Shown here in pieces: positions 26,541 to 50,500 of a stretch of 64,000 nucleotides of DNA. The stretch's first letter is position 1; each line of letters starts with the position of its first letter. Origin of the DNA: Caenorhabditis elegans (Eukaryota; Nematoda; Chromadorea; Rhabditida; Rhabditidae); the NCBI RefSeq assembly GCF_000002985.6, contig NC_003281.10, forward strand, positions 12,958,001 to 13,022,000. Direction: 5' to 3'. The position numbers and the translations under genes are program-made. The notes under the pieces are model-generated. The model saw only the letters and a program-made list of their open reading frames with translations. It made no database searches and was not told where the DNA came from.

Positions 26541-29393
26541 TCAATGCTTTCTCTTCCTCTTGTTCTTCATCTTTGGCTTAACGCTCAACTCGGCCACCTT
26601 CTTCACGTAGGTGTAGGCCATGTACGAAGCTACGTAGGCGGCAATACTGGTTGCAACAAGGACACTTCCGGTTCCAAGCTCGGCAGCAAACACTCTCTTC
26701 CTGAAATTTTGATGTTTGAATGTTGAAAAAGCTGGTGGAGAATCTCTCACTTCAACTCCTCCTCATCCTTTTCTGCCTGTGTTTTTTTATTGCTCGAACT
26801 CTTCAGTGGTTGTGCTTCAGGAGTTCCATCCTTTTCGCCAGAAGTTCCGTTTTCGTGGACCGGATCGACGGTTTCTGAAAGATAGATTTTGAAACTGGTC
26901 AAGAGAATAATTGGTACCATTTTTGGGTGGAGTCACTGGTGGCTTTGGTTCTGGCTCTGGTTCAGGTGATGGTGATGGTGGCGGTGGTGGCTGTGGATTA
27001 AGAGGCGAAGCCTCGGTGACTGAAAGAATTGTTGAAAAATGAGCTTCCAATAGTATCAGAAGTCGTGAACTTCTGCCCACTTACCAGGATCCACTGGGGC
27101 ATCTGTTGTCTGCTGAGGCAGTGCTGTAGATTGCGATTCGTTCGGACCATCCGTGACTGGTTCTGGCGTTGACTTTGGCTCTGGCTCTGGCTCTGGTGAT
27201 GGTGGTGATGGTGGCTGTGGATTTGGAACTTCGGTAGCTGAAAATTATTTAAAAATGAGCTGGAATGTTTTCCAAAAATTTCAGAACACACCAGGCTCCT
27301 CTGGGGCATCTGTTGTCTCGTCAGGCAATGCTGTTGAAGCTGTTGATAGTGGTTCTTCCGAAGTTGCTGGATCAACGATCACAACAGGCGGATTTGTCTG
27401 CACAACCGGATCAGAAGTCGTCGTACTTGGATCTTTCGCAGTTGCTGGTCCAGAGATCACAACAGGCGGATTTGGCGGCATAACCTGAGCAACGGTAGTG
27501 TCATTTGGTTCTTCCGAAGTTGCTGGATCAACGATCACAACAGGCGGATTTGGCGGCATAACCTGAGCAACGGTAGTGTCATTTGGTTCTTCCGAAGTTG
27601 CTGGATCAACGATCACAACAGGCGGATTTGGCGGCATAACCTGAGCAACGGTAGTGTTGTTTGGTTCTTCCGAAGTTGCTGGTCCAGAGATCACAACAGG
27701 CGGATTTGGCGGCATAACCGGAGCAACAGTAGTGTCATTTGGTTCTTCCGAAGTTGCTGGATCAACGATCACAACAGGCGGATTTGGCGGCATAACCTGA
27801 GCAACGGTAGTGTTGTTTGGTTCTTCCGAAGTTGCTGGTCCAGAGATCACAACAGGCGGATTTGGCGGCATAATCGGAGCAGCAGTAGTGTCATTTGGTT
27901 CTTCCGAAGTTGCTGGTCCAGAGATCACAACAGGCGGATTTGGCGGCATAACCGGAGCAGCAGTAGTGTCATTTGGTTCTTGCGAAGTTGCTGGATCAAC
28001 GAACACAACAGGCAGATCTGTAGGCACAGTCGGAGCAGCAGTAGTGTTGTTTGGTTCTTCCGAAGTTGCTGGTCCAGAGATCCCAACAGGCGGATTTGGC
28101 GGCATAACCGGAGCAGCAGTAGTGTCATTTGGTTCTTCCGAAGTTGCTAGTACAGGGACCACAACAGGCGGATTTGTCAGCACAACCGGATCAGCAGTCG
28201 TATTCGATTCCTTCATGGTTGCTGGCTTAGGGTCTCCACCATCGAGATTCAGAGGTTCATCTGCAGCAGGTGTAGTCGTACTTGTCTTGTTCGTAAATGA
28301 AGATGTACCGTTATCATCATCAGGGTTCAGACTCCCATCTGAAGCTGGAGTAGTCGTACTTGTCTTCTCCGTCGATGAAGAATTATCGCCTTTATCATTC
28401 GGAATTAGAAGTCCATTAGAATCAGGTGCAGTCGTACTGGTCTTGTTCGCAGATGAAGATTTCCCGTCGTCATCACCCACATTTGGAAGTCCATCTGTAA
28501 TATGAATAGTATTATTCATCCTATCCGTGAATAAAAATTTACCGTCGTCATCATCAGGGTTCAGACTCCCATTTGGAGATGCAGTAGTCGTATTTGTCCC
28601 TTCTGTGGATAAAGGCTTTCCGTCTCCATTTGCAAGTCCATCTTGATCAGTAGTAGTCGTACTAGGATCCTTCGCTGTTACTGGCTTAGGATCTCCACCA
28701 TCAGAACTAGTCGTACTGTTTCTATCCGTCAATAACGATTTCCCGTCTCCATCATCAGGGTTCAGACTCCCATTTGAATCAGCTGTAGTTGTGTTTGCCT
28801 TGTTCATCGATCCGTCTCCAGCCGGATCTGATTGTGTTCCGTTGCTTGGAACACCTGCATTGGGAGATGGATCAGCATCATCTGAAAAAAGTTCGTATTG
28901 ATGGATTTTTGTTGTCACAGAAATCTTCACAACGTACCATCTTGTCCAGCTCCAGTACCATCATCATTACCATCACCAACTCCATTACCATCATCGTTGG
29001 ACCACAGCTCATATCTTTTGACTCGACCAACTGAATCTGGATAGCGTTCTGAAACAAGTAAAGTTATAGTTATGTAATAGCACGGCGGACTACACGTGGC
29101 AAACCGAGCCGCGACGCGACACGCAACGCGACACGCAACGCGATACGCAACGCAATACGCGACGTGATACGCGACGCGACACGCAACGCAATACGCGACG
29201 CAATACGCAACGCGACACGCGACGCAACACGCAACGCGATACGCACCGCGACACGCAACGAGATACGCCCCGCTTGTCAATACTGCGAGCTCCCGGATGG
29301 AGAAAGAAACATACCGTAAACCTCTCGTTGACCAACCGCTTGATGAAGGAAGAACGTTATCAATAACAATTGACAAAGACGGAATGATCTCAT
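26541..29393 (-). CDS. Mucin-like type I membrane protein with Pro/Thr-rich repeats
   Basis: Seven exons: 29393-29315, 29048-28938, 28881-27292, 27237-27085, 27019-26918, 26874-26751 and 26700-26541 (2,319 nt, 772 residues; all internal junctions after exon 1 keep phase 1 until the last). It begins with a signal peptide (MRSFRLCQLLLITFFLHQAV). Exon 3 alone encodes 530 residues: an upstream Asp/Asn/Ser/Thr-rich part (repeats of NTTTADSNGSLNPDDG type), then about ten 28-residue repeats around SEEPNDTTVAPVMPPNPPVV. Exons 4 and 5 are Pro-rich (PPSPPSPEPEPEPK and PPPPPSPSPEPEPEPK), and look duplicated. Near the C terminus a single helix (GSVLVATSIAAYVASYMAYT) is followed by a basic tail KPKMKNKRKRKH. 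The many Thr/Ser and NTT/NDT sites fit a heavily glycosylated surface protein. No named family recognised. Confidence 0.8.
27480..28170 (-). repeat. Coding minisatellite, 84-bp units
   Basis: About eight to ten tandem units of 84 bp within exon 3 of the mucin-like gene. They are marked on the plus strand by TTTGGTTCTTCCGAAGTTGC and ACAACAGGCGGATTTGGCGG. The period is a multiple of three, so copy number changes keep frame. The units form two main subtypes (ending VIVD or VISGP) that alternate irregularly, a sign of unequal exchange. Confidence 0.9.
29098..29275. repeat. CG-rich short tandem array in intron 1 of the mucin-like gene
   Basis: About 180 bp of decamer-like repeats, ACGCGACACGCA and ACGCAACGCGAT in many variants (CGACACGCAACG, CGATACGCAACG). 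It starts with GAGCCGCGACGCGACACGCA, which is the core of family A, so it probably arose by expansion of that core. The surrounding intron is AT-rich. Confidence 0.85.
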
Positions 29394-29671: not shown

Positions 29672-32600
29672 ATGCTTATAATTTTCCTGCTCCTGCCAAG
29701 CCTATCAATATCTGGTACCTCAAACTACAGTAACCTTTTTCAAAATTTCTATACTTCAGGCGATGAGCCATGTAGCTCCAAATCGTGCTCAGCAGGACCA
29801 GCTGGAAATACAGAATGCCAGAATTATGGATATTGTAACTCGGAGAAAAAAGTTTGCTGTCTAGGTAGGCAGAATACATTTTTTAAAAATATTTAAAATA
29901 AATTTTCAGGTCACTATAAAAACTGTACTTCTCCTGAAAGTCGTGCTATCCGGCCCAGAATTTCTTGTAAAAACCATGAAGATTGTGAAATGAGCTATTG
30001 CGATCAGAAGCTCGGAATTTGTTGCTCAGGTAAATCAATAAATTGGGGGAATTGTTAAAAACCACTCAAAACCACGAAATTTTCTTTTCCGGCAAATTGC
30101 TGATTTGCCGGAATTTTTGAATTTCGACAATTTACCGATTAGCCAATTTACCGGAAAGTTTCACTTCCGGCAATTTGCCGATTTGCCGGAAAATTCAATT
30201 TCGGCAATTTGCGGGATTTTCTGGCAATTTGCTGATTTGTCGGAATTTTCATTTCCGGCAATTCGCCGATTTGCCGCAAATTTCACTTCCGGCATTTTGT
30301 CGATTTGCCGATTTGTCGGGAAGTTCCAATTCCGGCAATTTGCCGATTTGCCGCATGTTCCGTTAATGGCAATTTGCCGATTTGTTGGAATTTTCATTTC
30401 CGGCAATTCTCCGAGTTGCCGCAAACTTCAATTCCGGCAATTTACCGATTTGCCGTTTTGCCGGATATTTTGATTTTCAGCAAATTGCCGATTTGCTGGA
30501 AATTTTGATTTCCGGCAATATGCCGATTTTCGGAAATGTAGGTTTTCTACAAATTGCTGAATTACCCAAAATTTCAATTCTGGCAAATTTGCCGATTTGC
30601 CGGAAATTTTGATTTTCTGCAAACTGCCGAATTACCCAATATTTCAATTCCGGCGATTTGCCGATTTTCCGGAGATTTTGATTTCCGGCAATTTGCCGAA
30701 TTGCCCAAAATTTAAATTCTGTGAAAGTTGCCGATTTGCCGGAAATGTAGATTTTCTGCAAATTGCCGAATTACCCATTATTTCAATTCTGGTATTTTTG
30801 CTAATTTGCCGGAAAATTTTATTTTCGGCAATTTGCCGATTTGCCGGAAATTTAAGTTCCGGTAATTTGTCGTTTTGATCATTTGCACAAAATTTCAATT
30901 CTGGCAACTTTGCCAATTTTGCCGGAAATTTCGATTTTTTGCAATTTGCCCGGAATTTCAATTCCGGCAAATTTGCCGATTTGCCAATTTGGCTGAAAAA
31001 ATCGTTTGTAAACAATATTAAACCATAAAATTCAAAGCAAAAATTTTTTTGATTGACAAATTCCAAAAAAATCTGCAAAAACTTAGGGTTGCCCAGTTTT
31101 CTAAAAATCATATAAAATTCAGTTTTTTTTTTCAGAAGGGACTCACCAGAAGGATATTGCCCTAATAACCTAACATTTTATGGAATCGAACCAACTTGCA
31201 AAGGAAAATTCTCAAGAACGTGCTCTATAGATTCATATTGTTATCGAGGGCATTGTTGTCCGAGGCGTATGTAGTTTTCGGCAAATTGTCAATTTGCCGG
31301 AAAATTCTATTCCGGCAATTTACCGGTTTGCCGGAAAATTATCTTTAAAAATATCTTTTAAAACTTTCCACACTGGAAACTATATTTCAGACAAAGTCCA
31401 CGGATCTACAGTAGCCCGCCGAATAAGACCCTATTATACAAATCGAAAATGCAGTCCCTACGAGGCTCCGCCATTCCGCTACACGTTTTGCACACGTGAC
31501 ACTAATCGATTAGCAATTCTTGGAATGTATATGGCAGATGGGTCGGATAACATTGACACAGAGAGATATTGTGGGAGTAACCGGTAAAAGTCTGATTATT
31601 TTTTGATTGAAAATTGGATTTTTTCAGGGACTGCTCAAGTACATCTGTATGTGTATTCACTAATTCAGTTGGCACTTGCTTTGTGGATCCTATGGTATGT
31701 TGTATTATTATTTCTGATTTCTGATTTTAAAGCCATAATTGAACTAAAAAATAATGTAAAAAATTCAAAAATTCTAGAAAAAAATTCTAGTAGAGTGTAT
31801 AGTCGTGAATATGTAAAGCGGGAACACAAAATTCTAAGAATGCGTATTGCACAACATATTTGACGCTCAAAATATCTCGCAGCGACAACTACAGTAACTC
31901 TTTAAATGACTATTGTAGCTCTGGTGTCGATTTACGGGCTTGATTTTTGAAATTAATTTCAATTTCTGCTCAAATTGTGACAGCAATACTCAATTTTCTT
32001 TTGAATTTTTTTGTTGTGTTTTTTGTCATTTTTGTTTTTTCTTTCAATATTTAATCGATTAATAAAATATTTCCGTTACTGTAATTTTCGCTACGAGATA
32101 TTTTGCGCGTCAAATATGTTGCGCAATACGCATTCTCAAAATTTTGTGTTCCAGTAACAGTTTCTGTGCAACCACACTGTGCCCCATTTCGGTTTGATCT
32201 ACGTAGATCTACAAAAAATGGGGGGTGGGCGGCAATTGCCGTTCGGCAAATTGATTTATCGACAAAGTCGGCAAATCGGCAAATTGCCGGTTTGCCGATT
32301 TGCCGGAAGTGTTTAATTCCGGCAAATTGCCGGTTTGCCGATATGCCGGAGATATTCATTTTCGATTTTTTTTCTAGATATTTTCATAGAATTTGCTTAC
32401 TTTTCAAAATAGATGAAAGAACATTCATAGGATGCGTTTTGCCATTTGGAAATGAAATTCTGAAATTCCCAAAAAAAAGGTGCAAAACCACAATTTGTCG
32501 AAAATTGTTCGGCAAATACGGCAAATCGGTAATTAGCCGGTTTGCCGATTTGCAGTAAATTTTCAATTCCAGCAATTTGCCGGTTTGCCGATTTGCCAGA

Positions 32601-33296: not shown

Positions 33297-34492
33297 ATGA
33301 TTTTTCCGAATTTCTTCGTATTTGTTATAGTTATTTTGCTGTCTGCTGATGCGAAAAAGATTTGGACCAAGGCTGATTTACCACAGTTCAGGTGAGCACA
33401 CTCTGAAAATATATATCCTTATAGGGATGCTGTAGGATTACTGTAGTTTTGGGTAAACAGATTTTTTATTTTGAAAGGATATTGGGTTGAGCTCAGTGAA
33501 GGGATAGGGTTGGGGTACTGTAAGAGTACTGTAGGGTTACTGTAGTTTGAGGTAAACATATTTTTTTGAAAGGATATTGGGTTGAGCTCAATGGAGGGAT
33601 AGGGTTGGGGTACTTTAGGATTACTGTAGTTTTAGAAAAATACTGAAATTTCAATCTTCTAAGAAAAATTTTGGCGGTAATTGATTTTTTTTTTGGAGAG
33701 AAATTTTGACGAGGTTGAATATTTCCGAGTAAAAAATTCCGAGGGATTTCACATTTTTCGGGAAAAAGCCTGGCGGGATTTCAAATTTTTTGGGAAAAAT
33801 TTTGGCGGGAGTTCAAATTTTTTGAGAGAAATTTTGGAGGGGTTCTAATTTTCTGGGAAACAGTTTGGCGGAAATTGAAATTTTATCAGAGACAAATTTC
33901 AAGGGATTTCATTTGAAATTGTCCTCAAAAAAAGTTTGGCGGGATTTTAAATTTTTCGGGAAAAAATTTGGCAGAATAAAAAACATTCTAGACAGCAATT
34001 TCTGGAAACTTTTAAAAAAAGTTCTGGAAGGTTTGGAAAACTCTAGGAAAAAGGTGCAACCATTCATGTATTTTTTGGTCAAACTCTGGATATTTTCAGA
34101 CCCAAAAAGCCAGTGGAAGAGCCCATCCCAACAGGCCCACGAAATCGAATCGTCGAGTGGAAAAATAATTTGAAATTCCAAGAAGTCAGCCCGAAGAATA
34201 ATGTTTTCTGTCGGGTAAGCGTCCTTCTTACTTCTAAGTAACTACTCCAGATTTATAGATTTTCGGGCTTTGTGCTCACTATTCAACTGGTGTAGTTGTG
34301 CTGAGCATGCTCTCAAAATGGAAGGATCGTGGAATGATCTACCCGTACAAAAAGTACGACGGAACACCTGATTCCAACTTACCAATGACTGATTTGCACA
34401 ATTTCGTTAGTAAGTTCTTTATTGTAAAGTTTCAAAATACCTACATATGATACTTTTCAGAAACTCTCCATAACAAGCCGAAAAATAATTGA
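33297..34492 (+). CDS. Small secreted protein, family unknown
   Basis: Four exons: 33297-33391, 34100-34214, 34259-34409 and 34461-34492 (393 nt, 130 residues). A hydrophobic start (MIFPNFFVFVIVILLSADA) reads as a signal peptide. The mature part is basic and has two cysteines (NNVFCRIFGLCAHYSTGVVV), then MLSKWKDRGMIYPYKKYDG and a C terminus KTLHNKPKNN. The frame of exon 3 requires the acceptor ATTTATAG at 34,258, not the TCCAG seven bases earlier, which would run into a stop. No family recognised. Intron 1 (708 bp) holds a local duplication and an E2F/CHR-like array. Confidence 0.7.
33430..33635. repeat. Tandem duplication of about 110 bp
   Basis: GGTAAACA followed by TTTTGAAAGGATATTGGGTT, GAGCTCA and GGGATAGGGTTGGGGTACT occurs twice (about 33,452 and 33,552) with few differences. 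It lies in intron 1 of the small secreted protein gene. Confidence 0.75.
33652..33985. repeat. Degenerate TTTTGGCGGGA-TTCAAATTTTT array
   Basis: About seven units of 45-60 bp, each close to TTTTGGCGGGAGTTCAAATT followed by TTTTGGGAAAAA. The unit recurs at 41.4-42.0 and 46.7-47.0 kb. Confidence 0.7.
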
Positions 34493-37939: not shown

Positions 37940-38110
37940 AAATTCTTTAAAAAAATCCTGGAATGTTCTAGAACCTTTTGGAAATTTTTAACAATTTCTG
38001 GAATGTTCTAGAACCTTCTCAGAAAATCAAAAATAATTTTGGAATTTTCTAGAACCTTCTGAAAAATTTGGCAAAATTTTGAAGTATTCTAGAGCCTTCC
38101 GAAAAATTCA
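37940..38110. repeat. Heat-shock-element-like minisatellite, 3' flank
   Basis: Four or five units of about 35-40 bp around TTCTAGAACCTTCTGAAAAA, just beyond the stop of the four-transmembrane gene. It is the same unit as the intronic array at 38.5-40.2 kb. Confidence 0.8.
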
Positions 38111-38213
38111 AAAAAAAATCTGGATATTTTTTTGGGGTTTTATTTAAACAAAAACAACTATCAATATTATGCACCAGTTGTGACTTTTTCAACGCTTTTT
38201 GAACTGCGGAGCT

Positions 38214-41200
38214 CTACACATCATCCTCAAAACCCTTCAGCTTGCTCTTATTCCTCTCAATCTCCACATGTTCGCGTTCTTCTTGCATTCGCCTTCTCAT
38301 CTCCATCGGCATATTCGGCAAATCCTCTGGCCAATGCTGGTAATAGAGCTTCTTGATTCGTTCGGCCGGCGTCTCTCGCTTCGCCCGCAGTGTCTCGTTC
38401 ATCGTCTTGTACTTCCACGGAAAACCGATCTGGTCTGGTTCGGGCGCGTAGAAGTCGAGTCTGAAGAAAGTGTGAAAATTTTTGCGTGTGAGAGAGGGGT
38501 CTAGAGGGCTATTCACTAGAACATTTAAAAAATCCAGACGCTTCTAAAATGTTCTAGAACCTTCAGAAAAATTCCAAAAAAAATCCTGGAATTTTCGTGA
38601 ACCTTCTGAAAAATTTGGCAAAATTTTGGAATGTTCTAGAACCTTCGGAAAAGTTTTAAAAAAATCTGGAATTTTCTAGTACCTTCTGAAAAATTCGGCA
38701 AAATTTTGGAATGCTTTAGTACCTTCTGAAAATTCCAAAAAAATCTGGAATGTTTTAGAACCTCCTGAAAAATTTGGCGAAATTTTGGAATGTTCTAGAA
38801 CCTTCTGAAAAATTCTAGACACCTCTGAAATGCTCTAGCACCTTCTGAAAAATTTAAAAAAATATATTTTGGAATGTTCAAGAACTTTTTGAAAAATTAC
38901 AAAAACATCTGGAATGTTCTAGAACCTTGTGAAAATGTTTTTTTTTTAATTCTGGAATGCTCTGGAACCTTCTGAATAATTCAAAAAAATTCTGGGATGT
39001 TCTAGAACTTTCTGAAAAATTTAACAACATTTTGGAATGTCCTAGAACCTTCTGAACATTTTTTTGGAAATTTTTGGAATGCTCTAAAACCTTCTGAAAA
39101 ATTTTTAAAAATTCTGGAATGTTGTAGAACCTTCCCAAAATTCAAAAAATATTCTGGAATTTTCTAGAACCTCCTGAAATTTTTTTTAAATTTTGGAATG
39201 TTCTAGAACTTTCCGGGAAATTCGGAAAAATTGTGAAATGTTCTAGAATCTTTTGAAACATTCATAAAAATTCTGGAATGGCCTAGAACCTTCTGAAAAA
39301 CTTGGCAAAATTTTGGAATGTTCTAGAGCCTTTTGAAAAATTCAAAAAAAATTTTTGGAATTTTCTAGAACCTTCTGAATCTCTCTAGACACCTCTTAAA
39401 TGTTTTAGAACTTTCTGAAAAATTCACAAAAACGCTGAAATTTTTTAGAACCTTCTGAAAAATTTTATACACCTCTGAAATGTTCTAGAACGTTCTGAAA
39501 AATTCACAAAAACGCTGAAATTTTTTTAAACAAATAATAAAAATTTTCAGAAAATTCTGGAATGTTCTAGAACATTCCGAAAAATTTTAAATCGTTCTGG
39601 AATGTTCTAGAACTTTTTGGAAAATTTGGAAAAATTCTGGAATGTTCTAGAGCCTTCTGGAAATTTTAAGAAAATTCTGGAACTTTCTAGAACCTTCTGA
39701 AAAATTTTAGACACCTCTGAAATGTTCTAGAACCTTCTGAAACATTCCAAAAAAAATCTGGAATGTTCAAGAACCTTCAGAATAATTTGGCAAAAATTTT
39801 GGAATTTTCTATAACCTTCTGAAAAATTCACATAATTCTAGAATTTTTTTAGAACCTTCTGAACATTTTTTTAAAAAATTATAGAATTTTCTAGGACCTT
39901 TTGAAATTATTTCAAAAAACTTCTGGAATTTTCTAGAACCTTCTGAAAACTTCGGGAAAATTTTGGAATGTTCTAGAACCTTTTGGAAAATTTTAACAAA
40001 TTCTGGAATGTTCTAGAACCGTCTGAAAAATATGGCAAAATTCTGGAATCATCTAGGGCCTTTTGAAAAATTCACAAAAATGCTGGAATGATCTAGAACC
40101 TTCTGAAAAATCGTAGACACCTCTGAAATGTTCTAGAACCTTCTAAAAAATTTTTTAAAAATTTCTGGAATTTTCTAGAACCTTCTGAAATTTTGGCAAA
40201 ATTTTGGAACTTTCTAGAACTTTTTGAAACTCACTTTGTACTCGGGCCTGGTGCTCCAGGCCCTGGTGGAACATTATACCCCATTCTCCTCAAATCCTCC
40301 TTCCTCTGCTTATTCAAATGCCTCTGTAACTGCACATCAGGCACCGCTGGCCACTCTCTTCTCCAATCCGGAACTATTTCCGGAACCAACAGGTCACCCT
40401 TCGGTTTCGGGGTGAAAAGGGCCGCCGAGTCAAGAGCCAGATAAGGAGCCGCAGTGACAGGCTCAGGAGGTGCCAGTTGAAGTTGTGGAGGAGCGACAGG
40501 TCGAGAATAGGAATGAGATCTGTGATGATGCTTCTGATGGCGTCGAGCATCATTAGGATCCAGGTAAATTTTTGATACATGATTTCGACGACGCCTTCTG
40601 CTGTGCTTCGGGCGTGTTGAGATAAGGGATCCGGAGAGTCGAGAGAAGAATACTATCACAACAATGATTGTAATAACCTGAAGGGAACAATGTAGAATTT
40701 TTTTTTTCTTATAAGTTACTTACATTTATCGCAACTGACATCACGAATTCAAAAATTGACATAGTGAGTTGCTCATTGAATACATCCTAAAAATTAAAAT
40801 TCTTTTCAGAAATTCTCAACTTTATTTTCAATAAAATTTTAAGAGTTTTTAGACACCGAAGTCACAGTCTTCTAAATAAGATACCTATTCGTTTCGAAAA
40901 AAATTAAATTAAAAAAAAAAAATTTCAGATGAATTTTTAGATAATCGAACATTTCTATAACGCGCACTTTTTAAAATTATAATAAATGAAACAAAATAAT
41001 TATTTTTTATTACAGAAACAAAAATATTCAGGCAATGTTTTTAGGTTGCAATTACTATAAAATACTGCTCTTCAGAATTTCGTGTTCCCGTAGTGAAAAA
41101 AAAAACCTTCTGAACTTACCCCACTCCACCACAAAACCGAGTAAGCTGTTGTCATAATGCATAGCGGTACGGAAGTTCCAAACCACGGCCAAATTAACAC

Positions 41201-42471
41201 TTTCAAATACTGAAAATGTGGTTTTATATGTTTAGAAGTAAAAGAAAGCTCACCTTAAAAGCTGCATACAAAAGTAAGACAGACGTGAGTAGATTTAGAA
41301 TGGCAAAAATGACGCAAACGATTATGATGACGTACATGGCTGAAAATTGAAGATTTGTTCTTTTTTCGGTAGGCAATGTTTTTTGACCATATTTTAAAAA
41401 TCATACTTTAAGCTGGAATTTTTTTTCCGGCAATTTTTAGTTTTTGGCGGAAAAGTCAAATTCACTCACTATCAGAAGAAATATTGGCCAAAAGTTCAAA
41501 CTTTCTAATAAAACTTTTTGGCGGGAGATTCAAATTTTCTCCGAAAAATTCCGGCGGAGTATTCAAGGGTTCTTATGAAAATTCGTGCAAAAAACTCAAA
41601 TTTTTCAGAAAACATTTTGGCGGGAAATTCAAATTTTCTCAGAAAACACAATTTTTCTCAAAAAAATTTTTTTGCCGGGAGTTCGAATTTTCCCAGACAA
41701 CATTTTCGCGGAAAATTGAAGTTTTCTGAGAAAAACTTTCTGGCAAATTGCTAATTTTTGTATTGTCAGAAAAAAAAACTGACGGAAATTCAAATTTTCT
41801 TGGCAGAAAAAAACCAATTTTCGTAGAAAAAATTTATAAAAAGGGGGGGGGGGGGATATAATTTTCCTGAGGTAAATTTTTGCCGGGAAATTCAAATTTT
41901 ATTAGACAAATTTTTGGCGGAAAACTCAAATTTTATCATAAAAAATTTTGGCAAGAAATTAAAATTTTGTTAGAAAACATTTTGGTGTAAAATTAATTTT
42001 TTTAAAAGTAATCTTTATTTTGATAAATTTTCCATAAATTCAAAATCAAAGTAACGCTGCTCTTATTAAAAAATTTTAAACGTTTTCTTACCATTAGCTC
42101 GTCTTCTTTCCGGGGTCTCCGTATAAATCTGATAAAGTCCAGGGAATCTTGCTTGAAATCCATCAATTCTAAAAATATAATTTCATTTTATTTTTTATGT
42201 CTTGATTTTTATAATTTAATAATTATAGTTTAAAACAAAATCAAAATGAATAAACTCACGCTCCAGTTGCCGGAAGTTGTCGATTTTCATACTCTGCCAG
42301 GATATTCTTGACAACTTGAAATTGCCATCCAAGAATTCCGAATTGAATAAAGCAATAGATCTGAGTAATGCATTGCAAATTTCAAAAAAAAAAATTGAAA
42401 ACTCAACTTACAATATTCCAGACAGCAATCGCAATTGTGGCCCCCCGCAGGCAATAAAGCGGGTCCGCCAT
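38214..42471 (-). CDS. Four-transmembrane protein with long basic cytoplasmic tail
   Basis: Eight exons: 42471-42412, 42360-42260, 42168-42092, 41339-41254, 41209-41120, 40786-40724, 40677-40235 and 38460-38214 (1,167 nt, 388 residues). Hydrophobic segments lie near residues 9-30, 81-105 (MYVIIIVCVIFAILNLLTSV), 112-135 (LIWPWFGTSVPLCIMTTAYS) and 148-170 (ending TIIVVIVFFSRL). After the last helix comes a tail of about 215 residues: RPKHSRRRRRN, a His/Ser stretch (RRHQKHHHRSHSYSR), Pro-rich sequence, and charged repeats ending KLKGFEDDV. A TTTTCCAG acceptor upstream of the ATG suggests trans-splicing or a 5' UTR exon. The layout resembles nematode tetraspan families of unknown function; no named family recognised. 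The last intron (1.77 kb) is almost wholly a heat-shock-element-like minisatellite. Confidence 0.8.
38520..40225. repeat. Heat-shock-element-like minisatellite, 1.7 kb, intronic
   Basis: Roughly 40 units of 35-45 bp follow the plan GGAATGTTCTAGAACCTTCT then GAAAAATTC and A-rich linker. By eye about 13 copies of TTCTAGAACC are exact, and TTCTAGAA occurs about 20 times. TTCTAGAACCTTC is three alternating TTC/GAA pentamers, the canonical HSF1 arrangement. The array fills the last intron of the four-transmembrane gene and continues as a short block past its 3' end. Confidence 0.9.
41440..41990. repeat. E2F/CHR-like degenerate array
   Basis: About ten units around TTTTGGCGGGAAATTCAAAT (best copy near 41,618) with linkers such as TTTCTCAGAAAA. 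It lies in the intron between the third and fourth coding exons of the four-transmembrane gene. Confidence 0.75.
41843..41855 (+). repeat. Poly-guanine tract, 13 G
   Basis: An uninterrupted run of 13 G preceded by AAAAA and followed by ATATAA, embedded in the array above. It stands out strongly in this AT-rich intron. Confidence 0.95.
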
Positions 42472-44839: not shown

Positions 44840-45838
44840 TTTTTTCCGGCAAATCGGCAAATTGGAAAATTGCCGGAATTTAAAGTTTCATGCAAATTGG
44901 CAAATTGCCAGAATTTAAAATTTCACGCAAATCGGCAAACCGGTAACTTGCCGGAATTTAAAATTTCATGCAAATTGGCAAATTTCCGGACTTTTTTTTT
45001 CAGACAAATCGGCAAGCCGGTAAATTGCCAGAATTTAAAATTTCAGGCAAATCGGCAAACCGGTAACTTGCCGGAATTTAAAATTTCATGCAAATTGGCA
45101 AATTTCCGGACTTTTTTTTCAGACAAATCGGCAAGCCGGTAAATTGTCAGAATTTAAAATTTCAGGCAAATCGGCAAACCGGTAACTTGCCGGAATTTAA
45201 AATTTCATGCAAATTGGCAAATTGCCAGAATTTAAATTTTCAGGCAAATCGGCAAGCCGGTAACTTGCCGGAATTTAAAATTTCATGCAAATTGGCAAAC
45301 CGGTAACTTGCCGGAATTTAAAATTTTATGCAAATTGGCAAATTGCCAGAATTTAAAATTTCCGGTAAATCGGCAAACCGGTAACTTGCCGGAATTTTAA
45401 ATTTCATGCAAATTGGCAAGTTATCAGAATTTAAAATCTCAGGCAAATCGGCAAGCCGGAAAAATTGGCGATTTGCCGAATTCGCCGGAAAACCGTAATT
45501 GCCGAAAATTTTCGGCAAACTGTGGTTTTGCACATTTTTTTTTGGAAATTTAAGATATTCATTTTTAATCGGCAAAATTGTGCGCATCCTATGAATGTTC
45601 CTAAATTTCTTTTGAAAAGTACGATGAAAGCATCTAAAGAAAACGGGAAAGAAATTTCAAAAAGGCACAGTTTTAGGTGTTTCCATCTTATAAAAAGTCC
45701 TTCTAAGCATTTCCGGCAAATCGAAAAACTGGCAAATTGCCGGAGTTGAACATTTCCGGCAAATCGGCAAACCGGCAATTTTCCGATTTGCCGAATTTGT
45801 CGACCAAAAAATTTGCCGAATGGCAATTAATGTACTCT
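44840..45838. repeat. Family E element, 1 kb, with internal amplification
   Basis: The left part is a tandem array of about eight higher-order units (AACCGGTAACTTGCCGGAAT, TTAAAATTTCATGCAAATTG) with a period near 110 bp. The right part carries the family core (CGCATCCTATGAATGTTCC, AAAAAGGCACAGTTTTAGGT) and the closing arm CCAAAAAATTTGCCGAATGG. Confidence 0.8.
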
Positions 45839-45965: not shown

Positions 45966-47280
45966 ATGAACCCGGCGCTCTCCCCAGACCAACCATTTTT
46001 CGACAACCGAGTATCATCTTCCTCTCGCATTGAACATATAAACAATGATGGCCCAATGTCATTCACATCTTCTTGTATGAGAGATATGGGAAGGGAGAAG
46101 ATTGAAATTGTCGAACGTGGTCTGCTCCATGCTCTCTATTGTCCAAGAGCACATCATTCGTGTTGCCTTCTGTGCACCCGAATGAAATTTGTCATTAGTC
46201 ACACGAGGAAATGTGTTAGGCGACGGAGGGAGGTGTGCGAGGTGTGCAGTACAGTTGTCTCGATTACGGTATTTCATGCAAGAGTTTGTGACGAAGAAGA
46301 GTGCCAGATTCCGTTTTGTCACGAGATTCGAGATGCGATGGAGGTAATTGATGTCAGAATTTTTCAAAAAAACCGTAGGTTTAGGCTCAGGCTTAGGCTC
46401 AGGCTTAGGCTTAGGTTTAATCCTAGAGAGGGAGTTGGGCTTAGGCTTAGGCGGAGGCTTAGGCTTAGGTTTAAGCTTAGGCTTAGGCTTCGGCTTAGGC
46501 TTAGGCTTAGGCTTAGGCTTAGGCTTAGGCTTAGGCTTAGGATTAGGCTTAGGCTTCTGTTTAGGCTTAGGCTTAGGTCTAGGCTTAGGCTTAGGTTTAG
46601 GCATAGGCTTAAGCTTTGGCTTAGGCTAAGACTTATGCAGTTTTTGATAGGTGTCAAATGTTGGCCAAAGAAAGTTCAAATTTTCTCAGAACTTTTCTTT
46701 GCGGTAATTTCAAAAATTTAAAAGAAAAATATTTTGGCGGGACACTAAAATTCTCATAAACGGTTTTGGCGGGAAATTAAAGTATTCCACACAAAAAAAA
46801 ATTTCGGCAGAAAAAACCTACTTTTGCAGAAAAAATTGACAAGAAATTTCAATTTTGTCACACAAAAAATTTGGCAGAGCCTAATTTTTTCTAGAGCATT
46901 TTGACAGAAAATTGAAGATTTGAAAGAAAAATTTGGCGGGAAATTTAAATTTTTAGAGAAAAAAGTTTCAAAACTCGCGGAAAATTAACCGCCCACCCCT
47001 GGTAGCTATGCGAAATATATTCTTTAATCAATTTACTAAAAATTATACAAAAATCAATTAAATTCCGTTTTAGACATATTCCGCCGGATCCTACCATCTC
47101 TACGATCTCGACCACTTGGTGCATCGAGTCGTCCGTCGCCTACAGGATCTCTCCCCCGATCAACAACTATCAGATGAAGAAGACGGAGAAGCTGAAGTCG
47201 CTGGAGATCAGCACTGGAATTATTTCAAATTTCTCGAGCAAGATCAAGTTGCCGAGGTCTCTTCCACAACAAATGACTAA
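45966..47280 (+). CDS. Small TAZ-type zinc-finger protein
   Basis: Two exons: 45966-46343 and 47074-47280 (585 nt, 194 residues). After about 40 polar residues ([15 protein letters not shown] ...) comes a TAZ zinc finger: [56 protein letters not shown] and [14 protein letters not shown], with the His/Cys triplets expected for three zinc sites. In CBP/p300 TAZ domains bind transactivation domains of transcription factors. Here the domain stands alone, without KIX, bromodomain or acetyltransferase. The C-terminal 69 residues ([20 protein letters not shown], then acidic [11 protein letters not shown]) look helical. Exon 1 begins directly after TTTTCAG, fitting trans-splicing; an upstream exon cannot be excluded. 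It precedes the SLC6 gene by 271 bp on the same strand, possibly an operon. Confidence 0.8.
46374..46636 (+). repeat. Interstitial TTAGGC telomere-like array in an intron
   Basis: About 260 bp of TTAGGC units, nearly perfect from 46,485 to 46,550 and with TTAGGT, TCAGGC and TTCGGC variants outside. It is in the single intron of the TAZ gene, 30 bp after its donor. The Gly-Leu and Pro-Lys ORFs over it are repeat translations. Confidence 0.95.
46660..46990. repeat. E2F/CHR-like degenerate array, third copy
   Basis: Units such as TTTTGGCGGGAAATTAAAG and TTTGGCGGGAAATTTAAAT recur about every 45-60 bp in the same TAZ-gene intron. Confidence 0.65.
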
Positions 47281-47551: not shown

Positions 47552-50500
47552 ATGGCTCAGTCAAATGCTTTAACAACAACAACAACCGGATCAAGTGCAC
47601 CATCCGTGATTCCTCCAACTGCTCCAACAGCGTCTGTAAAGACAAAGGCACCAACGAAGGGACCTGTTCAACCACAAAAGAAGCCTACTACGGTGGATAA
47701 CGGGAGAAGAGCCTACAGAAATCAAGTGGTGGTAGAGAATGTCGATCGGCAGGCATTTCGTGGTGTAAGTCATTGGATCCTTTTCTCCAAAAAAAAAGAC
47801 GTGGTTTATTTAGGATATGTGGATTTGAGCACGTTTGCATAGTAAAAAGTTTCACGGCAATTTTCAAGTTTAATTCATTTTTAAAAAAATGTTGAGTCAC
47901 CATATGGATTCTAAATGAAACCTATGTCATTTGAAGGAGGTCTTTCAAACTAGCTCGCTACAAAAATTTAGAGCACTTTAAAGTCGATCTGAAACTTTTT
48001 CCGTTCATTTTTCCATATTTTAGACAAACGGCTTTTTTTTTCGGCAAATTGGCAAATTGCCGGAATTGAACATTTCCGAAAATTTCCACATTTCTTTTGA
48101 AAACTTCAGAATTTCCATTTCAATCAGCAGAATTATAAGTGTTTCCGTCTTATAAAAACCCCTCTGAAAAATTCCGGCAAATCGGCAAATTGCCGGAATT
48201 GAGAATTTCCGGCATGTTGGCAAACCGACAATTTGCGGGAATCGAAAATTTCCACTTTTTTTTTTTGGAAACTTCAGAATTTCAATTTCAGCCAGCAAAA
48301 TTTTAAGTGTTTCCGTCTTATCAAAATTCCTCTGAAAATTTCCGGCAAATCTGATATCCGACAAACGGCAAATTGCGGGAATTGAAAATTGCCGGCAAAT
48401 TGGCAAACTGGCAAATTGCCGTAATTGAAAATTTCCGGCAAATCGGCATATTGGCAAATTGCCGGAATTGAAAATTTCCGGTAAATTGGCAAACTTCCAA
48501 TTTGCCGAAAATGAAAATTTCTGGCAAATCGGCACACCTACAAATTGCCGGAATTGAGAATTTCCGGCAAATTGGCAAACCAGAAATTTGCCGAATTTAT
48601 CGACAAACCAATTTGCCGTCCATCCCATATTTAACAAACCTGGAGGACCAAATTAATGTACATTTTTATTACAGATCGAATCGTTTCTGAGTTCTCTCGG
48701 ACAAGCTGTCGGACTCGGAAATATCTGGAGATTCCCAACAACCGCTTATAAAAATGGAGGTTTATCATTTCTCATCGCATACGTTGTATGTGGAATACTG
48801 TTCGCCGTTCCAGCAATTCACATGGAATTCGCTCTGGGACAGTATGCAGCCAAGTCGCCGCCTGCGGCCTTTCGAAGAATGATGCCTATTTTGGAAGGAG
48901 TCGGATGGATGACTTGTCTAGTCGGAGCGATCATAGGTGTCTACTATATGATTGTCATCTCGTGGATAGTTTTGTACCTTTTCAATATAATATACGCTAC
49001 CAAGATCAGCAAGTGTAATAATGATTGGAACAAGAATCGATCGACAATCTGTTATGAAGGTGTCAAGCAGAAGTTATGCAGCGGATATATGCTGAATAGT
49101 TCTCTGGTGATGACCAATTTGACTAGAAATGCGTCAGTGCACAGCAAAATGATGTATATTGATGGAAAGTGCCAGAACGCGACAAATATGAAGTTGGCAG
49201 TCGGGACTGAGCAGTTTTTTACGTATGTTGTGGGGAATCGTTTTTCGAAAAACTAGGCTTTTTATAGCGTTCATAATTATTTGAGCGCGCTTGCTGACAC
49301 GTGGACTACAGGGCTGGGACCAAAAAACAAAAAATTAAAAGTTTTTGAAAAACCAAAACTGGACACACGCATCAGAGCCAAGGGTGGGCGGCAAATTTGC
49401 CGGTTTGCCGATTTGCCGGAAATTTTCATTTTCGGCAAATTGCCTATTTGCCGGATATCAGATTTGCCGGATATGTTTAGATGGATTTTTTTGCCAAACT
49501 GTGCCTTTTTGAAATTTTTTACAGTTTACTTTAGATATTTTTATAGAATTTGCTTACTTTTCAAAATAGAAGTAGGAACATTCATAGGATGCGCACAATT
49601 TTGCAGATTGAAATTGAAATTCTGAAATTTCCAAAAAAATGCGCAAAACGATAATTTTCCGAAAATTTCCGGCACATTCGGCAAATCGACAATTTGCCGA
49701 ATTGCCGGGTATTTTCAAGTCCGGCAATTTGCCAATTTGACGATTTGCCGGATATTTTCAAGTCCGGCAGTTTGCCGGTTTGCCGATTTGCCGGATATTT
49801 TCAAGTCCGGCAGTTTGCCGGTTTGCCGATTTGCCTGAAATTTTCAAGTCCGGCAGTTTTCCGGTTTGCCGATTTGCCGGATATTTTCAAGTCCGGCAAT
49901 TTACCGATTTGCCGCAAACTTCAATTCCTGCAATTTGCCGATTTGCCGGAAAAAATCGTTTGCCGCCCCCCGCCCTTGATCTACGCGAATTGCAGAAAAA
50001 TTTAGACGCGTCTAGACCAGGGGTGTGTGGCAAATTTGCCGGCAAATTTTGAGATTTGCCGCACACCCTCTGATTTCGCAAGACGTCACAATTTTCTAGG
50101 GGAAAAATCCCGCATTTATTGTAGATCAAACCGCTATGGGACAATCTGACACCACGTCGTACATAGAATATCAACCAACAATATAATTTTTTCCAGAAAC
50201 TTTGTTGTCAAACCATCGACAGGCTTTACCGACTTCAACTCGATCAACGTCCCGATGCTCGCCGCAGTTGCTGTCTGCTGGGTCATTGCAATCATTAGTT
50301 TGATACGCGGAATGAAGGCCATCGGAAAACTGTCCTATTACACTGTACTTCTCCCGTATGCTATAATAATTGCACTCATGATTCGCGGGCTTACTCTTGA
50401 AGGCGCCAGTACTGGATTACACTTTCTTTTTTGGGGAAAACCAAATGAATATGGACATTACGATTTTGCTGGGCTTTACGATCCGGACGTTTGGATAGCT

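Follow-up and report, generated by a model that had tools for sequence, protein, structure and literature searches.

The Helitron HelitronY4_CE of Caenorhabditis elegans has been described as carrying a 40-base GAATGTT repeat and a 15-base repeat (PMC4039745), and a satellite of family 5_40_94 is listed as part of it in a work that treats Helitron satellites and excludes intronic satellites from its further study (PMC9918286). According to Garrigues 2019 (PMC6927752), Helitrons hold 61.4% of genomic heat shock elements (HSEs), eight copies of HelitronY4_CE are reported with over 100 HSEs, and upon heat shock both HSF-1 and Pol II generally rise at Helitron HSEs; at col-88, which has 10 Helitron HSEs, occupancy is given as below that at hsp-70. 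That Helitron-borne HSE arrays recruit HSF-1, as an earlier sequence-only reading of the locus treated here had pointed out, is thus published (Garrigues 2019, PMC6927752). A further system for comparison is human satellite III, a tandem repeat to which HSF1 is reported to bind in nuclear stress bodies (PMC9737000, PMC6453478). Worm HSF-1 granules are reported to be able to reform at similar locations (PMC9737000, PMC6453478, PMC9261439), and their binding sites were termed unknown in 2019 (PMC6453478).

Our analysis concerned a 64-kb window, i.e., the whole stretch III:12958001-13022000. We consider it rather likely that what fills intron 7 of one gene in this window is a decaying orphan array belonging to the 40-bp satellite of HelitronY4_CE-type Helitrons. 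The gene, the intron and the two 40-bp arrays are the following (window positions).

38217..42471, minus strand: host gene, 8 coding exons, 388 codons, no internal stop, stop codon TAG at 38214-38216; modelled from splice signals and the open frame
38461..40234, minus strand: intron 7 of the host gene, GTGAG...TTTCTTCAG; splice sites and open spliced frame, read from sequence
38541..40229, plus strand: large array, a 40-bp HSE satellite of about 42 units with consensus TTCTGGAATGTTCTAGAACCTTCTGAAAAATTTTAAAAAA, five of eight pentamers intact; from TRF, unit alignment and HSE counts against shuffles
37946..38116, plus strand: small sister array in the same orientation as the large one; TRF period 40, 4.2 copies, five of eight pentamers in the unit consensus, two copies of GAATGTTCTAGAA

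The large array is a 40-bp HSE satellite of the HelitronY4_CE kind, with which it shares the 40-bp period, the GAATGTT core and the TTC/GAA phasing, the consensus being nearly equal in the arrays compared. It differs from that element in being intronic, in lacking both the Helitron ends and the 15-bp repeat, and in being more decayed, with 0.841 identity to its own consensus and five of eight pentamers left. Similarly, it is a dense HSE cluster of Helitron type like those of Garrigues 2019 (PMC6927752); however, HSEs were assigned there to genes within 2.5 kb upstream, and the word "intron" is absent from the main text of that paper, whereas the window array is intronic. It is as a fresh example of an already known repeat family, ordinary in kind and clear as an example, that the array is presented here.

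TRF called the large array at 38548-40229 with a period of 40 and 41.5 copies. In contig coordinates the array spans III:12,996,541-12,998,229; it starts straight after the 5-nt donor GTGAG, leaves 80 bp of non-array sequence at the 3' side of the intron and makes up 95% of it. The boundaries 38520..40225 given previously are accordingly amended to 38461-40234 for the intron and 38541-40229 for the array. Pentamer counts (alternating TTC/GAA at 5-bp spacing) stand in here for an HSF-1 matrix score. Scanned over 38541-40231, the large array holds 86 two-, 42 three-, 19 four- and 6 five-pentamer sites, overlaps counted, while 500 dinucleotide shuffles gave at most 13, 2, 1 and 0, respectively, with a mean of 0.19 for three-pentamer sites. 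HSEs of at least three pentamers are thus present well above chance, in support of the HSE arrangement proposed earlier. The remaining 61.65 kb of the window contains 6 three-pentamer sites, a number attained in 1 of 50 shuffles; two-pentamer sites are in modest excess there (119 vs. a shuffle mean of 87; 0 of 50 shuffles reached this count). Since a repeat multiplies any motif, the 40-bp unit was shuffled as well; the consensus unit of the window array carries a run of five consecutive pentamers, a length reached by none of 20000 unit shuffles. The earlier count of about 20 cores in one intron agrees with the 21 copies of TTCTAGAA found in the large array, which together with 3 in the small array and 5 elsewhere give 29 in the 64-kb window, against a mean of 1.78 and a largest value of 7 in the shuffled window. 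To describe the intron as made almost wholly of HSE triplets was too strong, although the array itself is real, because a run of at least three pentamers occurs in 23 of its 41 full units, at least four in 13 and five in 4.

A 13-mer, GAATGTTCTAGAA, served as positive control. Six of 20 HSP20 matches were taken as loci; they represent three divergent gene pairs of chromosome V, with two copies of the 13-mer, searched on either strand, between the genes of each pair. We take these pairs to be the hsp-16 genes and the 13-mer to be their HSE. In the window it occurs 9 times in the large array (eight copies on one strand and one on the opposite strand), twice in the small array and nowhere in the rest, and genome-wide 254 times, compared to 4 for the reversed control.

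The unit in Helitron arrays consists of four TTCnnGAAnn blocks and forms a near-continuous HSF-1 site. Divided into tens, the unit of L031 reads TTCTGGAATG TTCCAGAACC TTCTGGAAAA TTCGAGAAAA, i.e., eight alternating pentamers in phase, and its tandem consensus is therefore one unbroken HSE. This continuous structure is largely known, as extended motifs fitting tandem overlapping HSEs have been described (PMC6927752). Six-pentamer runs number 1554 genome-wide and 0 in the reversed control. Among 23 arrays, the consensus has all eight pentamers in five (L031, L034, L036, L042, L043), seven in 14, six in L046 and L048, and five in both window arrays; the 18 arrays from Helitron-ended loci all keep seven or eight. 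The longest exact runs comprise 33 pentamers in L034, 37 in L036 and 6 in the large window array, whose own-consensus identity is the lowest of the 23. The four 10-bp blocks of the unit also bring to mind a PATC-like element, in which A/T tracts phased at 10 bp would shield the gene from germline silencing. A/T-tract power does peak at 10.15 bp, with a height equalled by 5 of 200 block shuffles, but it reaches 1.1 as opposed to 6.3 and 3.6 in two Helitron arrays, and the phase is broken by 24 inserted bases; we find this role scarcely credible.

A DNA search of the worm's own genome (100,286,401 bases, 7 contigs) gave at least 137 matches. The best one outside the window, among those listed, lies at IV:2754798-2756461 (76%), and this closest listed relative has kept one worn Helitron end. 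Helitrons have the form TC...CTRR. The ends in the relatives match it, consisting of TCATTACYTATATATA and a GC-rich hairpin finishing CTGG, nearly always flanked by A and T. Twenty relative loci, chosen from the best matches and from paired-array loci and thus not a random sample, were searched for these ends. Both were found in 12 and, loosely, in L034; one was found in four (L035, L038, L045, L047), where the other may in some cases fall beyond the sequence examined, and none in three (L042, L046, L048). At least one end is thus present in 17 of the 20 loci, and the 3' hairpin/CTRR end in 15. Seven further places, with flanks of about 1.5 kb, yielded at least one end in four, in L001 by weak matches only, and none in L023, L024 and a place at 334 kb on chromosome I. 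The Helitron kinship suspected earlier is supported by both sets. In addition, each of the 17 loci with an end among the 20 has satellites of 123, 15 or 32-35 bp near the array, arranged for example as 123-bp, 40-bp, 15-bp, 32-35-bp and 40-bp.

The longest run among those found is at V:7,916,954-7,925,020 (L013-L018), where about 8 kb lies under overlapping matches to the 40-bp HSE repeat. In L018 a Helitron 5' end and 15-bp and 32-35-bp satellites precede this run.

At the window array, the Helitron ends that the sequence-only reading had proposed to seek at its edges were not found: the 5' TC end (TCATTACYTATATATAAA) is absent from the whole 64-kb window, including 33-48 kb, at up to five mismatches, and so is the 3' hairpin with CTRR in both of its hairpin types. 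An insertion evidenced by ends was consequently rejected for this copy, and we regard the array as an orphan given that the window holds none of the known end types. The 15-bp satellite CCATCGTGG(T/C)GAGAC is missing beside the large array, the window having just two imperfect matches (2-3 mismatches), both near 24 kb. No 123-bp or 32-35-bp satellite adjoins the array; both types occur in other introns, about 4.5 and about 1.2 kb away.

41442..42001, plus strand: degenerate 32-35-bp GGCGGG satellite filling most of host intron 3; the type is also found inside Helitrons
33422..34051, plus strand: degenerate satellites (123-bp, then 32-bp, then traces of the 40-bp repeat) within what looks like an intron of the adjacent plus-strand gene

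No Helitron ends were found at the 33422-34051 satellites. A second degenerate 32-35-bp GGCGGG satellite is located at 46651-46968. A flank shared with the relatives was also considered and rejected, as the 82 bp left of the large array match none of the 20 relative loci or the 7 other places.

The lack of an end or of the 15-bp Helitron repeat beside the array speaks against our preferred explanation and leaves the insertion without a direct sign. Furthermore, 6 of the 27 other places are end-less too (7 of the 27 with flanks of about 1.5 kb only), so the satellite may travel alone. It could accordingly be an independent 40-bp satellite that spreads by itself and is picked up by Helitrons, the window array never having been part of one, and other satellites of Helitron type do stand alone in introns of the window. 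We nevertheless judge this to be unlikely, in view of the satellites accompanying the array in every end-bearing locus of the 20 and of the worn end retained by the closest listed relative. Divergence among units points the same way: it is 0.159 in the window array, 0.129 in L042, 0.113 in L046 and 0.063 in L048, and ranges from 0.015 to 0.097 in the 18 others, so that three of the four end-less arrays exceed every one of the 18 in divergence, as expected of old remnants, L048 being the exception.

The share of units matching the consensus was then compared between pentamer and other columns in 22 arrays, the small window array being left out, with labels permuted within base type; the arrays share ancestry and are not independent, and single-array p values stem, uncorrected, from 22 tests. 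In the large window array the HSE columns score 0.873 and the others 0.822 (p = 0.11), and selection on its HSEs was therefore rejected as not significant, although the slightly better preservation of these columns may reflect weak maintenance. The end-less arrays, the window array included, show better-kept HSE columns in 2 of 4 and p < 0.05 in none, while the Helitron-ended arrays show them in 15 of 18 and p < 0.05 in 3 (L045, 0.0005; L039b, 0.0015; L041, 0.0475). The better-kept columns of the ended arrays may indicate selection on HSF-1 binding inside Helitrons. These results bear on the proposal that the array is maintained as a heat-responsive enhancer within the gene or as a sink for HSF-1, in which selection would keep the HSEs and bound HSF-1 would alter host transcription or be titrated. 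The very high HSE density of the large array would suit such a role, and a review reports that germline HSF-1 prefers Helitrons under heat (PMC9737000). However, significant excess conservation of the HSE columns is lacking here, as it is in all four end-less arrays against 3 of the 18 ended ones, three of the eight pentamers have gone from the window consensus, and unit identity is the lowest of the 23 arrays, which makes maintenance distinctly unlikely. Of the options that had been offered for the locus, a satellite that spread fits best.

The host protein has a long C-terminal tail and, in a 19-residue hydropathy scan, three hydrophobic segments over 1.6, so the description of the gene as four-transmembrane was not confirmed. 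No Pfam family scored over its cut-off; five sub-threshold hits were obtained, and the one to Herpes_glycop was taken as chance. Gene capture was considered and rejected as well, since the own-genome search did not find the host protein a second time in full length but gave one partial relative, III:13729585-13729827 (35% over 82 residues, 79-160).

The extra cores noticed past the 3' end of the host gene are those of the small array, which has 3 copies of TTCTAGAA and lies downstream of both the host stop codon and a minus-strand AATAAA at 38139. That the two represent one array split by the last exon was rejected, because the small array scores 166 bits with L048 and 161 with L036 but only 158 with the large window array. 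The large array lies within the transcribed region, and the small one, just past the AATAAA, would be included in heat-induced read-through. An effect at the RNA level might be imagined, the palindromic units giving self-complementary intron RNA that would influence intron 7 splicing or form dsRNA, also in such read-through. Folding of 1000 nt (39230-40229) gave a z value of -8.3 on the transcribed strand and one of -20.4 on the opposite strand, none of 20 shuffles being as stable in either case, and heat-shock dsRNA foci are reported to overlap partly with HSF-1 granules (PMC6453478). However, TTC/GAA alternation yields such folding without any function and the untranscribed strand folds better, and we hold this effect to be very unlikely.

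Returning to the orphan Helitron satellite, what our analysis revealed is a unit akin to that of Helitron arrays, HSE phasing, the absence of known end types from the window and the lowest unit identity. The array would have originated by insertion of a Helitron or by ectopic copying of its satellite, its ends having been lost or never present, and it would have decayed after arrival and now be drifting. HSF-1 trimers would probably still bind the units with at least three pentamers on heat shock, as suggested by the shared 13-mer and the published binding of the family, with presumably a small effect on the host gene. It is probably a decaying fossil and a candidate HSF-1 binder. The array also provides a natural test of an HSE satellite inside a gene without its transposon. 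Since its units are diverged, unique mapping of short reads should be easier here than in the near-identical Helitron arrays, which would allow a cleaner view of HSF-1 occupancy.

The family view weighs more, as a satellite forming a near-unbroken HSF-1 site is candidate DNA for HSF-1 granule binding in the worm. The dispersed 40-bp HSE satellite might even be the DNA scaffold of HSF-1 nuclear stress bodies in the worm and so correspond to human satellite III while being a product of Helitrons, though we see this as a long shot. Human satellite III is pericentromeric, whereas the worm satellite is short, dispersed and Helitron-linked. Under this scaffold reading the window array stands apart as a worn member of the family, and the run of about 8 kb at V:7.917-7.925 Mb is the longest found. 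Among the literature titles and abstracts covered, none described this array or proposed Helitron satellites as a scaffold for HSF-1 granules.

Other repeats were also observed in the window. A 78-bp tandem repeat of 10.9 copies lies at 27350-28198, and its period, divisible by three, points to a possibly coding repeat. Satellites of GGCAAATTGCC type are dispersed across the window, for example at 30218-30877, 44843-45459 and 49690-49950.
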